DNA of 34,884 nt, from positions 1 through 34,884 of the forward strand of contig JAKSMS010000019.1 in the NCBI GenBank assembly GCA_024400415.1. Reading direction: 5' to 3'. A program made the position numbers and the translations under genes. The notes beneath the pieces were generated by a model that was not told the origin of the DNA, searched no databases, and saw nothing but the letters and a program-made list of their open reading frames with translations. Source of the stretch: Bacteroidales bacterium (GTDB lineage: Bacteria > Bacteroidota > Bacteroidia > Bacteroidales > P3). This document shows, one piece after another, positions 6,543-24,812 of the stretch (the stretch's first letter is position 1; each line of letters starts with the position of its first letter).

Positions 6543-7952
6543 TTATAGTTCGTAGCTAGAGAGGCGCTCAGGAATCTCGATATTCTTATAGCCGGCCTCC
6601 ACGAGATGGTCGCGGAAATGCTCTTGGGTTTCGGCCTCGCCGTGCACCACAAAGATCTTCTTCAGCTTAGCGGCCTTCTGGCAGCCGATGTAGGAGATCA
6701 TCTCCTTGTAGTCGCCGTGGCCCGAATACGACTCTATGCGGCGAAGGTCGCAGCGAACGTTGTGCACATGGCCAAAGATAGACACCTGCTTGTCGCCACG
6801 CATAATCTTAGCGCCCAACGTCTTAGGCTCGCAATAGCCCACGCAGAGGATCGTAGTCTTGGGATTCTCGATATTGTTGGCAATATGGTGCTTCACGCGG
6901 CCGGCCTCCATCATGCCCGAAGCCGAGATGATGATGCAGGTCTTGTTGCGCTCGTTGAGCGCCTTGCTGGCCTCCACGCTCTGGATGAACTGCAGGCGGT
7001 CGAATCCGAAGGGGTCCTTGTTGGGGTCCTCGTTCTGCGCATAGTCGAGAATCTTGTCGTTGAAGCACTCAGAATGAAGCTTCATGATTTCGGTAGCATT
7101 GACGCTGAGCGGACTGTCCACAAACACATCGATATCAGGCAGCAGCCCCTTGTTTCTCAAGCGGTCGAAGGCATAGATAATCTCCTGAGCGCGGCCCACG
7201 GCAAACGAAGGGATGATGAGCTTGCCCTTCTTCTTGGTGCAGGTGTCGAGCACAGCCATCAGCAGGTCCTGCTCAGCCGTGTCGAGGGTGTCGTGCAGGC
7301 GGTCGCCATAGGTAGACTCCATGATGAGGTAGTCCACCTGGGGGAACGGCTCGGGGTCTTTGAGAATCTCCTTGTCGTAGCGGCCGATGTCGCCGGTGAA
7401 GCCCAGCTTGATCTTGCGACGGCCGTCCTTGATTTCGAGATACACGCAGGCGCTTCCCAGAATATGGCCGGCGTCGAAGAATTCCACCGTCACCTCGCCT
7501 TCGATGTTGAACTGCTTGTGGTAAGGCACGCTGATAAAGCAGCTCATGCAAGCCTTGGCATCGTCCTCGGTATAGATAGGCTCCACAGGGTCGAGGCCCT
7601 CCTTCTTGCGCTTCTTGTTGAACTGCTGCACATCGCCCTCCTGTATGCGGCCGGCATCAGCCAGCATCACGGCACAGAGGTCGCGCGTGGCAGGGGTGCA
7701 GAGCACCGTGCCGTTGAAGCCCAGCTTATGAATATAGGGAATAAGGCCCGAATGGTCGATATGGGCGTGGGAAAGTATCAGGTAGTCAATCTCCTTGGGA
7801 TCAAAACCCAAATCTCGATTCATGCCGTCGGTCTCCAGCCCCTTGCCCTGGTACATACCGCAGTCGAGCAGAATCTTTATTCCGTTCTTAGTGGTTATCA
7901 GATGTTTGCTGCCAGTAACTTCACGAGCGGCACCTAAGAATTCCAGTTTCAT
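6543..7952 (-). CDS. MBL-fold beta-CASP RNA-processing exonuclease-like protein
   Basis: A 469-residue metallo-beta-lactamase/beta-CASP protein of the YSH1/CPSF73-like prokaryotic group. The metal-site motifs are all present: HAHIDHSG (motif 2), AGHILGSA (motif 3), TGDIGR (motif 4), then the beta-CASP insert with SFAVGRAQEI and SASGMMEAGRVKHH, and the C-terminal RMMBL part with FGHVHNVRC, YSGHGDYKEM and VVHGEAE. Family members cut RNA using two zinc ions; the RNA target here is unknown. The protein is cytoplasmic and of usual length. It is the first gene of a unit with cstA and the repeat protein, and has a good promoter about 30 nt upstream. Confidence 0.92.
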   Translation of the reverse strand: MKLEFLGAAREVTGSKHLITTKNGIKILLDCGMYQGKGLETDGMNRDLGFDPKEIDYLILSHAHIDHSGLIPYIHKLGFNGTVLCTPATRDLCAVMLADAGRIQEGDVQQFNKKRKKEGLDPVEPIYTEDDAKACMSCFISVPYHKQFNIEGEVTVEFFDAGHILGSACVYLEIKDGRRKIKLGFTGDIGRYDKEILKDPEPFPQVDYLIMESTYGDRLHDTLDTAEQDLLMAVLDTCTKKKGKLIIPSFAVGRAQEIIYAFDRLRNKGLLPDIDVFVDSPLSVNATEIMKLHSECFNDKILDYAQNEDPNKDPFGFDRLQFIQSVEASKALNERNKTCIIISASGMMEAGRVKHHIANNIENPKTTILCVGYCEPKTLGAKIMRGDKQVSIFGHVHNVRCDLRRIESYSGHGDYKEMISYIGCQKAAKLKKIFVVHGEAETQEHFRDHLVEAGYKNIEIPERLSSYEL

Positions 7953-7984: not shown

Positions 7985-8016
7985 CAAAAATACAACTTTT
8001 TGCCATATCTGCCAAA
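7985..8016 (-). promoter_or_regulatory. Bacteroidota promoter for the beta-CASP/cstA unit
   Basis: On the minus strand TTTG (8013-8016) and TATTTTTG (7985-7992) are separated by 20 nt, close to the Bacteroidota consensus. The start site would be near 7978, leaving a leader of about 26 nt before the ATG at 7952. Confidence 0.7.
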
Positions 8017-8144
8017 TTTTTCATCAACTAAGTTGCCGCAGCCCCGCCAATCGCCCCTCCGACAGCATCATTCCAAGCCATTCCCCAACATCACTCCTCC
8101 CCTTCGCAAGCAGCACAATCCAAGCCACTTACAACGCCCTATCT

Positions 8145-8275
8145 GGTACCAAACTGGCGCATATGTGCTATATATGTGCTATATATGTGCTATATTTCTA
8201 CTATCCTATAGCATAGGACATATATAGCACATATATAGCACATATATAGCACAAATGAACCAGATAATATTGAGA
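8145..8275. repeat. Palindromic element of tandem 11-bp units, copy 1
   Basis: Each arm holds about three head-to-tail copies of the 11-mer GTGCTATATAT; the left arm (8160-8195) and right arm (8222-8257) are reverse complements over 36 bp with one mismatch. The loop contains a smaller stem TCCTAT-AGC-ATAGGA (8204-8218). A near-identical element occurs at 22609-22740 in the same orientation, with shared flanks (right flank CCAGATAATA). It lies between divergent promoters and carries no gene. The rest of the 547-nt gene-free stretch 7953-8499 holds the two promoters, the yidC leader and otherwise nothing I recognise. Confidence 0.85.
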
Positions 8276-8415
8276 TGGAGCTGAGATAGACTGCCGGTTG
8301 ACGGCGGGCAGAATCTTGGCAATGGGAGGAGGAAATACGGCTTGGCAGAAGGAGCGTTCGGCATGAAATTTTCGACCTTTGCAAAAAAAATCCCTTACTA
8401 TATAAAAATAAGTTG

Positions 8416-8423
8416 TAACTTTG
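8416..8423 (+). promoter_or_regulatory. -7 box of the yidC promoter
   Basis: TAACTTTG matches the Bacteroidota -7 consensus TAnnTTTG. No good TTTG is found 19-20 nt upstream, so the -33 element is weak or absent. The start site would be near 8428-8430, giving a 70-nt leader before the ATG at 8500. Confidence 0.55.
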
Positions 8424-8499: not shown

Positions 8500-10512
8500 A
8501 TGAATAAGCAATCTATCATCGGACTCGTACTGATCTTTGGAATTTTCGTCGGCTACATGTGGTGGGTAGCCCCTTCGGCAGAAGAAATTGCCGCTCGTCG
8601 CACCCAGGATTCTCTGGCCTACGTGGCACAAATGGAGGAGCAGCAGCGCCTCGACTCGATAGCCACCGCCGAGAAGATTCAAGCCGCCGTGCAGGACAGC
8701 CTCGCCAAGGTGGCTCCCAGGCAGTTTGCAGCAGCCTCTGAGGAGGCCAAGCAGACGGCTCAGAGAGACAAATTCAAGCAGTTTTCCGCCAGCGCCGAGG
8801 GCGACACCCTGGCCATCGTGATGCAGAACGAGAAGATGACCGTGGAGCTGAGCACCTTGGGCGCACAGATTGAGCGCGTGGTGCTGGCCGACTATACGAC
8901 CTTCAACGGCAACGAGCTGGAGCTCATCACCCGCTCTGGCGACAACATGGACCTGACCTTCAGCGTGGAAGGCCGCGAGATCCACACCAAGGACCTCGTG
9001 TTTGCCCCTTACATGAACGGCAAGCCCCTCGCCAACTGCGACACCATCAAGGTGACCGACAACGACTCCGCAACCCTCTGCCTGCGCGCCTACACCGAGG
9101 CCACCGAAGAGCATGAGGCCGGATATCTGGAATTTGCCTACACCATGCGCGACAACTACGACCTGGGATACACCATGAGCTTCCACGGCCTGAGCGACAT
9201 AGTGAGGGCCAACGGCGACATGTACCTCTTCTGGAAGAACGCCATGAACCGCCAGGAAAAGGTAGACCTCAGCAGCAAGGGCAGCCGCAACCCCAACAAG
9301 GACGCTGAGCGCTACTACTCAAGCATCTACTACAAGCCTATCAACGACGACGTGGACAACCTGCGCGAAGGCACCGATGGCGACAAGCAGATCAACACCG
9401 GCCTCAACTGGATTGCCTATAAGCAGCAGTTCTTCAGCGCCATCCTCATCAACGACAAGGGCTTCATGAACGCCGAGATGGAGGTGAAGACCGACCGCGA
9501 GGACACGTCGGCAACCTATCTGTGCGACATGTCTTCGGCCCTGGGCATCGACTATACCGGCGAGAACGACTTTGCCTGCGACATGCACTTCTACCTGGGA
9601 CCAAACAAATATCGCGACCTGCGCGACATGGACCAGGGATTCGAGCGCATGCTGCCTCTGGGCTGGGGATTCTTCCTCATCCAGTGGGTATGCCGCTTTG
9701 CAGTAATCCCTGTGTTCAACTTCCTGGAGCAGTTCAACTGGAACTACGGTATCATCGTCATCATCCTCACCATACTGCTCAAGCTGGTGCTCTTCCCACT
9801 CACCTTCAAGAGCTACAAGAGCTCGGCCGTGATGCGCATACTGAAGCCTGAGATGGACGCCCTCAACAAGAAGTACCCCAACCAGGACCAGATGATGCAG
9901 AAGAGCCAGGAGCAGCAGCGCCTCTACAAGCGCGCCGGCATCAGCCCAATGGCAGGCTGCCTGCCTATGCTGCTGCAGCTGCCTATCCTCTACGCCATGT
10001 TCCGCTTCTTCCCTGCCTCTATAGAGCTGCGCCAGAAGGGATTCCTTTGGGCCGACGACCTCTCCACCTACGACTCAATCCTTGATTTCGGATTCAACAT
10101 TCCACTCTATGGCGACCACTTCTCGCTGTTCTGCTTCCTGATGTTCGCCATGCAGTTCTTCTACACCTGGTACACCATGAAGAGCCAGGCCGGCCAGGCC
10201 AGCATGCCAGGCATGAAGTTTATGATGTACTTTATGCCATTCATGATGCTGTTCATGTTCAACAGCATGAGTGCCGCCCTCAACCTCTACTACCTGCTCT
10301 CGCTGACCATCACCATGATCCAGATGATGCTCATCCGCAAGTTCACTAGTGAGAAGAAGATTCGCGCACGCATGGCTGCCTACGATGCCGACATGGGCAA
10401 GAAGGGCAAGAAGGGACCACAGAAGAAATCCAAGTTCCAGCAGCGCCTTGAGGAACTGCAGAAGCAGGCCGAGGAGATGCAGAAACAGCAGCAGCGCCAG
10501 CAGCGCCGTTAA
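8500..10512 (+). CDS. yidC: Membrane protein insertase YidC
   Basis: YidC/Oxa1-family insertase, 670 residues, the usual size for the Gram-negative form. It inserts and folds inner-membrane proteins, alone or with SecYEG. An N-terminal anchor (residues ~7-24, IIGLVLIFGIFVGYMWWVA) is followed by a long periplasmic domain to about residue 380. The conserved insertase core begins near LGWGFFLIQW and includes NYGIIVIILTILLKLVLFPLT, the cytoplasmic hairpin KPEMDALNKKYPN with QQRLYKRAGISPMAGCLPMLLQLPI, and further helices to about residue 625. The tail is strongly basic and Gln-rich (KKGKKGPQKK, then QQQQRQQRR), as expected for ribosome contact. nhaD follows after 41 nt. Confidence 0.98.
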   Translation: MNKQSIIGLVLIFGIFVGYMWWVAPSAEEIAARRTQDSLAYVAQMEEQQRLDSIATAEKIQAAVQDSLAKVAPRQFAAASEEAKQTAQRDKFKQFSASAEGDTLAIVMQNEKMTVELSTLGAQIERVVLADYTTFNGNELELITRSGDNMDLTFSVEGREIHTKDLVFAPYMNGKPLANCDTIKVTDNDSATLCLRAYTEATEEHEAGYLEFAYTMRDNYDLGYTMSFHGLSDIVRANGDMYLFWKNAMNRQEKVDLSSKGSRNPNKDAERYYSSIYYKPINDDVDNLREGTDGDKQINTGLNWIAYKQQFFSAILINDKGFMNAEMEVKTDREDTSATYLCDMSSALGIDYTGENDFACDMHFYLGPNKYRDLRDMDQGFERMLPLGWGFFLIQWVCRFAVIPVFNFLEQFNWNYGIIVIILTILLKLVLFPLTFKSYKSSAVMRILKPEMDALNKKYPNQDQMMQKSQEQQRLYKRAGISPMAGCLPMLLQLPILYAMFRFFPASIELRQKGFLWADDLSTYDSILDFGFNIPLYGDHFSLFCFLMFAMQFFYTWYTMKSQAGQASMPGMKFMMYFMPFMMLFMFNSMSAALNLYYLLSLTITMIQMMLIRKFTSEKKIRARMAAYDADMGKKGKKGPQKKSKFQQRLEELQKQAEEMQKQQQRQQRR

Positions 10513-22451: not shown

Positions 22452-22608
22452 GATATTTCGCTTTGAATGTTATACTATATTTGATTAACGACGATACCTC
22501 GAAAATATTGCATGACGCCCTCCAAGTTATTTCTCCGTGGCCAATCACCAACATCGCCCAGCCCATCTCCACCTGCCAGATGAACCATCTTTCATCTGCC
22601 TCTTTTCT

Positions 22609-22740
22609 GGACATAAAATGGTTCATATGTGCTATATATGTGCTATATATGTGCTATATTTGTACTATGCTATAGAGATAGCAGATATATAGCACATATA
22701 TAGCACAAATATAGCACATATGCGCCAGATAATACTGATT
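22609..22740. repeat. Palindromic element of tandem 11-bp units, copy 2
   Basis: Same organisation and orientation as the element at 8145-8275: arms 22624-22659 and 22687-22722 pair over 36 bp with one mismatch, each carrying about three GTGCTATATAT units. The loop stem is TGCTAT-AGAG-ATAGCA (22668-22683). Relative to copy 1 it has a 1-nt longer inner loop. It lies in the 564-nt gene-free interval (22452-23015) between the divergent ompA-like and clc genes. Apart from this element and the clc promoter I recognise nothing in that interval. Confidence 0.85.
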
Positions 22741-22996
22741 TAGAACGTCTTTAGAATTATTCTTCTGGAGAGTTATTTCTGACCTCGCTGGGTAGCAACG
22801 GAATAATAAGGAAGCGGCTCTTCCGGACCAGTACACGACTATGCCCGAAAAAAGCACACATCGGGGAGCGTAAATGACAGCATCGAGGACCATAAATATC
22901 TGCATCGAGCCCTTCGATGGGCCGCTACAACATGCAGCATTACAGGCAAATGAAAATTTTTATACGATTATGGCGGCTTCTCTCAAAAAAAAATCG

Positions 22997-23004
22997 TAAC
23001 TTTG
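22997..23004 (+). promoter_or_regulatory. -7 box of the clc promoter, adjacent to the start codon
   Basis: TAACTTTG matches TAnnTTTG. No TTTG lies at the usual distance upstream. The ATG at 23016 begins only 11 nt after the box, so the transcript would have a leader of roughly 4-7 nt. Confidence 0.55.
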
Positions 23005-23015
23005 CAGTTTGGAAT

Positions 23016-24812
23016 ATGAAAGACACTAGCGCCCTTAATAGACTGCACAACTGGCGAATCAGCCACATATCGGAGTACGGAATGACTCTGATACTGAGCG
23101 TCGTGGTAGGCCTTGGATCAGGCCTGGCCGCCGTATTGCTCAAGAATCTGGTGCACACTATTAACGGATGGCTGCTAGGATTCAGCCTGCCTCTTTCCTT
23201 TGGCGGCAACGGACTCATGCTCGTCTACCCCATCGTAGGCATCTGCCTCACGGTGCTCTTCGTGAAGTATGTGGTGGGCGGCGACATCGGCCACGGAGTG
23301 CCGGAGGTGCTGCTTTCCATATCTCGGCATCAAGGCGTGCTGCCACCCAAAAACACATGGGCTTCGCTGATGGCCTCTACCATCACCGTGGCATTCGGCG
23401 GCAGCGTAGGACTCGAGGCGCCCATTGCCTCCACGGGAAGCGCCATCGGTTCCAATATCGGCAGAATATTCCACATGGGGCCAAAGAATGTGAAGCTGCT
23501 GCTAGGCTGTGGCGCAGCAGGCGCCGTGGCCGGTATCTTCAAGGCGCCCATCGCCGGACTGATGTTTGTGGTGGAAATCCTCATGTTCGACTTCACCAAA
23601 ACCGCCGCAATACCCCTCCTATTCTCGGCGCTCACCTCCACGCTGGTGGCCCATTTCGCCATGGGACCTGATGTCCAGTTCGCCTTCGTAGTCAACGACA
23701 CGTTCAGCCTCAGCCAAATACCATTCTATCTGCTGCTTGGAGTTGTGTGCGCATTCGTATCCATCTATTTCCTACGCACCAGCGACTTCGTGGAGGACCT
23801 CCTTCACAGGATAAAGAATTCCGCGCTGAAAGTGCTGATTGGCGGCGCAGCGCTTGGATTGATGATATTCCTGTTCCCAGCCCTTTTCGGCGAGGGATAC
23901 GGCAGCCTCACCAAGCTCATGGCCGGACACGGCAGCACGCTGATGGAGAACACCATATTCTCCCAAATGCCCATCATGGAGAGTCCTTGGATGGGCGTCA
24001 TCTTCTTGTCTGCCATCGTGTTGCTGAAGGTGATCGCAACATCCACCACTATCGGCTCGGGAGGCGTGGGCGGCACATTTGGTCCCTCGCTCATCATTGG
24101 AGGCATGACAGGATACGCCTTGGCCCTATTCTGCAACAACCTCGGACTCCCCGCCCAGAGCACGGCCAACTTCGCCTTGGTAGGCATGGCCGCCGTAATG
24201 ACGGGAGTGATGCACGCACCGCTGATGGCCACATTCCTCATAGCCGAAATCACGGGAGGATACGAGCTGCTGGTGCCGCTGCTGATAGCCGCAGCCACCA
24301 CCACGCTTATCATAAACCCCTTTGAAAAGCATTCAATCTACGCCAGAAAACTAGCCCTGCACGGCGACCTTCTGACCCACGACATCGACTCCAGCGCATG
24401 GCAGCTCATCAACATGAGAGAGCTGATACAGACCAACTTCGTGATAGTGCGCGTAGGAGACAGACTGCGCGACCTCATCGAAGCCATCAAAAACTCAAAA
24501 CGCAACGTATTCCCAGTGCTGACCAACGACGACAAGTTCGTAGGCGTAATCCACCTCGACAGCGTCCGCCACATCATCTTCCGACCCGAGAAATACGACG
24601 AACACGAAGTCACCCAGCTGATGACGCCCATCTCAGAAGGCGACATAGTCCACATTAGCGACTCTCCGGAATCGGTAGTGGCCAAGTTCCAAGGCAGCAA
24701 CCGATACAATCTGATCGTGCTCGACGACGACGAGACCTATCTCGGCATACTCTCCAAGGCCGACTGCCTCACCGCCTACAGGCAATTCGTGGCCGAAGCG
24801 AGCGAAGAATAG
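23016..24812 (+). CDS. ClC chloride channel/antiporter with CBS domains
   Basis: A 598-residue ClC family transporter from the ATG at 23016; the frame stays open to 22917, but an upstream start would lie in front of the promoter and would add a segment unlike the family. About ten intramembrane helices carry ClC signatures: GGDIGHGVPEV (GSGIP-like region), FGGSVGLEAPIASTGSAIGS (GxxxGxEGP-like filter), GAAGAVAGIFKAPIAGL and TIGSGGVGGTFGPSLIIGG. The first filter loop reads GHGVP rather than GSGIP. Two CBS-type regions follow (about residues 470-595: RLRDLIEAIKNSKRNVFPVL and HISDSPESVVAKFQ, ending in LGILSKADCLTAYR), which bind nucleotides in homologues. It moves chloride or another anion. Confidence 0.92.
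   Translation: MKDTSALNRLHNWRISHISEYGMTLILSVVVGLGSGLAAVLLKNLVHTINGWLLGFSLPLSFGGNGLMLVYPIVGICLTVLFVKYVVGGDIGHGVPEVLLSISRHQGVLPPKNTWASLMASTITVAFGGSVGLEAPIASTGSAIGSNIGRIFHMGPKNVKLLLGCGAAGAVAGIFKAPIAGLMFVVEILMFDFTKTAAIPLLFSALTSTLVAHFAMGPDVQFAFVVNDTFSLSQIPFYLLLGVVCAFVSIYFLRTSDFVEDLLHRIKNSALKVLIGGAALGLMIFLFPALFGEGYGSLTKLMAGHGSTLMENTIFSQMPIMESPWMGVIFLSAIVLLKVIATSTTIGSGGVGGTFGPSLIIGGMTGYALALFCNNLGLPAQSTANFALVGMAAVMTGVMHAPLMATFLIAEITGGYELLVPLLIAAATTTLIINPFEKHSIYARKLALHGDLLTHDIDSSAWQLINMRELIQTNFVIVRVGDRLRDLIEAIKNSKRNVFPVLTNDDKFVGVIHLDSVRHIIFRPEKYDEHEVTQLMTPISEGDIVHISDSPESVVAKFQGSNRYNLIVLDDDETYLGILSKADCLTAYRQFVAEASEE

Follow-up and report, generated by a model that had tools for sequence, protein, structure and literature searches.

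Dispersed two-fold arrays of helically phased 11-bp units in a Bacteroidales genome: a possible DNA-wrapping platform upstream of promoters

The window considered here is a stretch of 34,884 nucleotides from a Bacteroidales draft genome, and it holds two copies of one intergenic element. Copy 1 lies between a minus-strand beta-CASP gene (start at 7952, with a PF10996 match in a Pfam run on four proteins of the window) and a plus-strand gene, which starts at 8500 and was labelled yidC in an earlier, sequence-only reading. That reading had placed a long palindrome between these two divergent genes, and both the position and the palindrome hold: the 36-bp arms (8160-8195 / 8222-8257) are exact as described, being reverse complements with one mismatch, and each carries the three head-to-tail units announced, of the form GTGCTATATxT. 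The extent of the element was however understated, as degenerate phased units can be followed by eye beyond the proposed limits of 8145-8275, from about 8141 to 8296. Mirror symmetry is also longer than 36 bp, reaching 55 nt on each side (8154-8208 / 8209-8263) with 87% complementarity. The 18-mer GTGCTATATATGTGCTAT, searched with up to 3 mismatches, gives 12 matches in the window versus 0.01 expected in shuffles. As a single strand, 8125-8292 folds with an energy of -40.9 kcal/mol (z = -9.45, with 0/200 shuffles as good), and at gathering scores Rfam gave no match to a known RNA in the window.

Both genes around copy 1 are preceded by candidate promoter boxes of the form TAnnTTTG, which we take to be the -7 consensus (Table 1). 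At copy 2, the start listed for the CLC channel gene is upstream of the gene's own candidate -7 box (TAACTTTG, 22997-23004, within the interval 22917-23017), and the true start is probably near 23017.

Table 1. Positions in the window of the two copies of the element, the parts of copy 1 and the candidate promoter boxes beside it.
Feature	Position	Strand	Basis or remark
Candidate -7 box TATTTTTG, beta-CASP gene promoter	7985..7992	-	216 bp from copy 1 centre
Copy 1, left outer degenerate units TATCTGGTACC and AAACTGGCGCA, 11-bp register	8141..8164	+	sequence reading; family-wide phased conservation
Copy 1, left arm, three 11-bp units GTGCTATATxT	8165..8197	+	sequence reading and motif search
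Copy 1, inner units and centre	8198..8219	no strand	sequence reading; 42/42 copies
Copy 1, inner unit CTACTAT	8198..8204		flanks centre
Copy 1, centre CCTATAGC	8205..8212		
Copy 1, inner unit ATAGGAC	8213..8219		flanks centre
Copy 1, right arm, three 11-bp units, reverse complement of left arm	8220..8252	-	
Copy 1, right outer degenerate units AAATGAACCAG, ATAATATTGAG, ATGGAGCTGAG, ATAGACTGCCG	8253..8296	-	sequence reading; phased family conservation
Candidate -7 box TAACTTTG, promoter of gene at 8500	8416..8423	+	208 bp from copy 1 centre
Copy 2 of the element	~22606..22740	no strand	between OmpA-domain gene (minus) and CLC channel gene (plus)

The two copies belong to a family of at least 48, all read in the draft genome from which the window comes (G000: 1,835,940 bases in 79 contigs, 81% complete). 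In a BLAST search, 40 of 52 candidates were scored and yielded 80 matches, most places being counted on both strands, while a 30-mer arm pattern allowing up to 3 mismatches matched 97 and 100 times in this genome and its reversed control 0 times. The sequence fetched contained 49 distinct clusters, one of them a chance match in a coding region. A local duplication of the two window copies, which the sequence-only reading had considered together with absence from related genomes, is thus ruled out by the 48 copies. The absence itself is real within the genus: with up to 2 mismatches the element was found in none of the 119 other genomes (1/120 with its own). Order-wide, with up to 3 mismatches, 2/295 genomes match, namely its own and G174, a member of another family. 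An exact 30-mer scan of genome_contigs, from which records near the source genome may be excluded, returned locus L036 as the sole match. Phages gave one 24-bp match (E 0.6), plasmids gave none, and IMG/VR had no match to two exact patterns; a phage or plasmid origin was rejected on these searches.

Analogous repeats were also sought in 376 kb from three congeners, where palindromes with 40-bp arms numbered 1, 1 and 0, all unrepeated. Only G081 and G143 had 14-mers repeated at least 4 times in these 376 kb. Contig C3 of G081 and contig C10 of G143 (L127-L138) carry high-copy repeats with AATTGCTTAAAAAGAGGACATTGACACAT, nearly identical between the two species, which are probably CRISPR arrays. 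In congeners, the gene labelled yidC has at most 62% protein identity and is too diverged for an empty-site comparison.

The element is modular. Each half usually comprises three TATATGTGCTA units aimed at the centre, then an inner unit, and then the centre. The unit is 11 bp long, about one helical turn, with GTGC alternating with TATATAT. The centre is mostly of the form xCTATAGxx, slightly asymmetric, and its length differs by a base among copies. Inner units, flank conservation and phase, flank pairing, mirrored letters and GC profile were analysed in 42/48 copies, six (L011, L021, L024, L040, L048 and L052) being left out for a variant centre or a contig edge, one of them apparently dropped by an over-strict duplicate filter. 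In 42/42 copies the inner units are non-mirror, with G starting one and C the other, in a search that permitted equal letters. Letters mirrored within a copy agree at position 10 of unit 3 in 28/42 (15.1 expected), and at position 10 of unit 1 in just 4/42 (20.9 expected), a pattern that would reflect descent in two lineages with an inner flip and some correction from arm to arm. The flanks of L014, L053 and L005 have a second short repeat in common, CAATGTTTTGCATTGCAAAACGAGGGTCT...ACACGTACATAGTT.

Beyond the arms, degenerate units hold the 11-bp register for about five turns per side, which makes a phased zone of ~200 bp. Over 84 aligned halves, conservation outside the core decays outward yet peaks every 11 bp, with A at -13 in 82/84 halves, at -24 in 79/84, at -35 in 54/84, and at -46 and -68 in 39/83 each. 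From -47 to -91 the 11-bp phase has P = 0.003 for A, 0.003 for G+C and 0.02 for TA, and is weak for TG steps (P = 0.12); from -58 to -102 it is weak for A, TA and G+C (P = 0.05-0.09). The core-adjacent unit follows a separate consensus, YTGGYKCATAT, so decay of core units is not enough to explain the outer ones. The mean GC profile shows a broad Fourier peak at 10.5-10.9 bp (46-50-bp windows), the units themselves being exactly 11 bp, and its mirror correlation is modest (r = 0.36), with a centre whose length varies by a base.

The usual marks of mobility were looked for at the ends of the element. In five stretches, the two flanks of one copy were no more alike than those of different copies (z -1.7 to 0.2). 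Over offsets 0-74 in 42 copies, no recurrent direct repeat indicative of target site duplication was found beyond the element's own ATAT, and the longest direct repeat between flanks averaged 6.05 within a copy versus 5.94 between copies. Between-copy identity drops gradually, from 11.0/22 at -29 to -7 to 5.9/22 at -62 to -40 (control 5.5); it is near background ~60 bp outside the core, and no terminal inverted repeats at sharp ends were found. Relics were scanned for with a half-element weight matrix built from 76/84 halves (leave-one-out minimum 50 bits, median 101 bits). All 93 matches of at least 8 bits are inside the 16 known copies of a 435-kb sample of the genome, with no relic or half element elsewhere in that sample or in the 376 kb of the three congeners. 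Transposase and recombinase searches in the source genome covered Y1_Tnp and PF00589. At E 0.01, Y1_Tnp (RAYT) gave 0 matches in this 81% complete genome; three PF00589 genes were found, with no convincing tandem units beside them within the fetched flank.

Neighbour orientation and promoter boxes were counted for 47 copies, with gene calls from a simple codon-score script that gets some starts wrong. Both neighbours were called for 37/47, of which 23 are divergent, 12 tandem and 2 convergent. For comparison, intergenic bases in the three congeners amount to 60.0 kb tandem, 24.8 kb convergent and 15.8 kb divergent. The sample of the source genome itself (435,187 bp; 8 contigs, all known carriers) has copies in 10/28 divergent, 5/243 tandem and 1/25 convergent gaps (Fisher P = 6e-8), and all 16 of its copies sit in gaps. 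This divergent placement arises partly because divergent gaps are longer. Among those of at least 300 bp, 10/14 are occupied, though the element itself adds to gap length. Between 60 and 700 bp from the centre, TAnnTTTG boxes point outward in 74 cases versus 17 inward, an excess due in part to the genes facing outward; 58 of the 74 outward boxes are 100-350 bp from the centre. By eye, the neighbour genes look like mixed housekeeping genes.

Copies are also widely spaced. All 13 same-contig intervals measure 10.6 to 36.1 kb, never below 10.6 kb, with copy centres taken by hand and one, at a contig end, estimated. Random placement of the same number per contig gives 6.1 intervals under 10.5 kb on average, and none with a probability of 1e-4. 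When placement is restricted to real gaps of the same classes (8 intervals), the probability of such a minimum interval is 0.002-0.006. Copies show a mild enrichment near contig ends (11/48 within 1.5 kb, P = 0.04), so some close pairs might be split by contig breaks and go unseen.

The two matches outside the source genome differ in their setting. G174 has at least 27 places with tandem GTGCT[CTG]TATAT, a count from 100 listed matches out of 125, and these unit arrays sit in AT-rich elements of ~550-640 bp with terminal inverted repeats. Both element ends were found in 4/19 loci, some loci being too short for both. In L145-L171 the ends of these MITEs read ATTATCCC[AG]ATTGTCCATTAGA / TCTAATGGACAATTTGGGATAAT, around an internal 11-bp minisatellite of 3-14 units. 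Of 18 G174 loci inspected for their neighbours, 13 could be read on both sides by eye, as 8 divergent, 4 tandem and 1 convergent. This genome has two PF00589 genes, of ~300 aa. At L036 the unit flanks a tyrosine recombinase gene on either side, with no further occurrence in the bin to which this locus belongs. There (L036:1-4075), inverted 5' ends of a porin gene (1-75, ~2236 on) flank the recombinase gene (860-1984), possibly a phase-variable porin inversion; the recombinase has two relatives in IMG/VR, at 26% identity. With an agreement of 10 letters in an 11-bp unit, a chance recurrence is possible across the source genome, G174 and L036.

Palindromes dispersed between genes are already known, as are minisatellite MITEs, and the nearest cases found are BrickBuilt and MITEPgRS/464, minisatellite MITEs of Porphyromonas gingivalis, described as species-limited and intergenic with a tandem-repeat core in ~20 copies (PMC4596501). 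They are reported with 23- or 41-nt direct repeats, a leader, a tail and IS5-type terminal repeats (PMC4596501), whereas the present element has inverted 11-bp arrays without terminal repeats, 48 copies and a preference for divergent gaps. Like REP/REPIN sequences (PMC3116915, PMC3733652) it is a short extragenic mirror repeat in many copies; unlike them, it has an internal 11-bp array and resides in a genome without a Y1_Tnp match. On that absence, in a genome 81% complete, a RAYT/REPIN identity was rejected. The parC centromere of plasmid R1 is an array of 11-bp ParR repeats for a cooperative protein, but here about fifty chromosomal copies form inverted arrays. The E. coli gyrase motif is given as 130 bp long and symmetric, with a GC period of 10.75 bp, and BIME-2 as intergenic palindromes cut by gyrase (PMC6379681). 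The element resembles this motif in its symmetric arms and in a GC content phased near the helical repeat; the motif is however degenerate and 130 bp long, while the element is near-identical among copies and phased over ~200 bp. Among the open-licence papers listed, no title or abstract opening describes an inverted phased 11-bp array at divergent promoters.

What, then, might such an element do? The reading we favour, with a probability of about 0.42, is that it is a maintained DNA-wrapping or bending platform which anchors supercoils upstream of promoters, with a putative protein partner. The sequence-only reading had listed a site for a protein bound on one helix face, and this is the best fit among its options, given an 11-bp register that extends outside the palindrome and flanks that are not matched within a copy. 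One protein assembly would wrap or bend ~200 bp from the central dyad outward, its grip weakening with distance. Among known wrappers, a gyrase-like type IIA topoisomerase would fit best; the alternative is a nucleoid protein that binds cooperatively. Such sites would hold supercoils in place as plectoneme tips, or insulate divergent promoters, at roughly one per supercoil domain. Copies probably spread by duplication as a non-autonomous MITE-like element and would now be kept by selection. Binding, wrapping and effects on transcription are what we infer here. A wrapping assembly would recognise just such features as the two-fold layout, the phased flexible steps and a periphery that fades. 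Conservation in phase beyond the palindrome counts for the platform, as do the unpaired flanks, the lack of recurrent target duplication and the gradual loss of identity, together with the absence of relics or half elements in 435 kb holding 16 copies, and the divergent-gap bias, outward boxes and spacing. The similar logic of the E. coli gyrase motif (PMC6379681) also argues for it, as do accounts that curved DNA pins plectonemes and that these localise upstream of promoters (PMC6301789). E. coli is described with 400-500 supercoiled domains (PMC3820752), taken here as ~10 kb each.

Other observations weigh against the wrapping platform. The core identity and the core letters shared by copies also fit recent mobility, and congeners lack the family, which would be odd if it served a basic function of the chromosome. 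Sequence preference is far weaker in E. coli gyrase, and this enzyme is attracted by positive supercoils, a kind not expected where promoters diverge; both points count against the reading, as does a phased zone of ~200 bp, longer than the 130-bp gyrase motif. So do the modest GC mirroring (r = 0.36), the two weak phased signals, the effects of gap length and gene orientation, the known-carrier sample and the contig breaks. These points leave room for a mobile MITE-like element that is neutral, has a minisatellite at its core and serves no host function. Its machinery would steer clear of coding DNA and of sites close to another copy (target immunity); we consider this explanation possible but less probable than the platform. 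The sequence-only reading had raised a MITE-like element, and the family is indeed dispersed, intergenic and species-limited, with core letters common to copies as by descent; its wide spacing fits target immunity, G174 has true MITEs, with terminal inverted repeats, that carry an almost identical unit, and P. gingivalis is a known host of minisatellite MITEs (PMC4596501). A neutral MITE nevertheless fits poorly with ends that show neither terminal inverted repeat, target duplication nor sharp limit, with flanks that keep the phase beyond the core, with a 435-kb sample in which no relics were found, and with a preference for divergent over convergent gaps.

The remaining explanations appear considerably weaker. 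That the copies are tyrosine recombinase sites, with the 11-bp unit as arm-type binding site, is suggested by L036, the sole exact 30-mer match in genome_contigs, where the unit borders a recombinase gene on both sides. Yet the source genome has three PF00589 genes, none with a convincing tandem unit in the fetched flank, G174 has two, and the unit could recur by chance, which makes this explanation improbable. Operator arrays for a large regulon, bound by a cooperative regulator of the ParR or MetJ type, would account for short phased units, best centrally and weaker outward, upstream of promoters, but are very unlikely given neighbours that look functionally mixed by eye and a spacing and near-identical core which a regulon leaves unexplained. 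The likelihood is equally small for a cruciform or hairpin selected to fold. This was another option of the sequence-only reading, and it is energetically possible: the fold is very stable (z = -9.45) and mirrored letters agree at position 10 of unit 3. The flanks within a copy are nonetheless unpaired, with no sign of selection for pairing, mirror agreement at position 10 of unit 1 is far below expectation, and the inner units are non-mirror in all 42 copies.

A bolder form of the wrapping platform, which we regard as rather doubtful, would make the family a chromosome-wide set of supercoil anchors written in sequence: some fifty or more two-fold wrapping sites, nearly identical to one another and placed between promoters at about one for each topological domain, where an existing wrap protein would fix plectoneme positions. 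On this view the minisatellite MITEs of the order (those of G174 and BrickBuilt) would represent further, independent forms of one helically phased device. Repeats scattered through bacterial genomes are often regarded as relics. Here, phasing over ~200 bp, a two-fold layout, placement upstream of promoters, wide spacing and the absence of detected relics suggest a maintained role in chromosome topology. The G174 element, in another family, has nearly the same 11-bp unit in the same type of gap, so that a common binding protein can be tested, and the family as a whole offers a natural test of whether DNA sequence sets the positions of supercoils.
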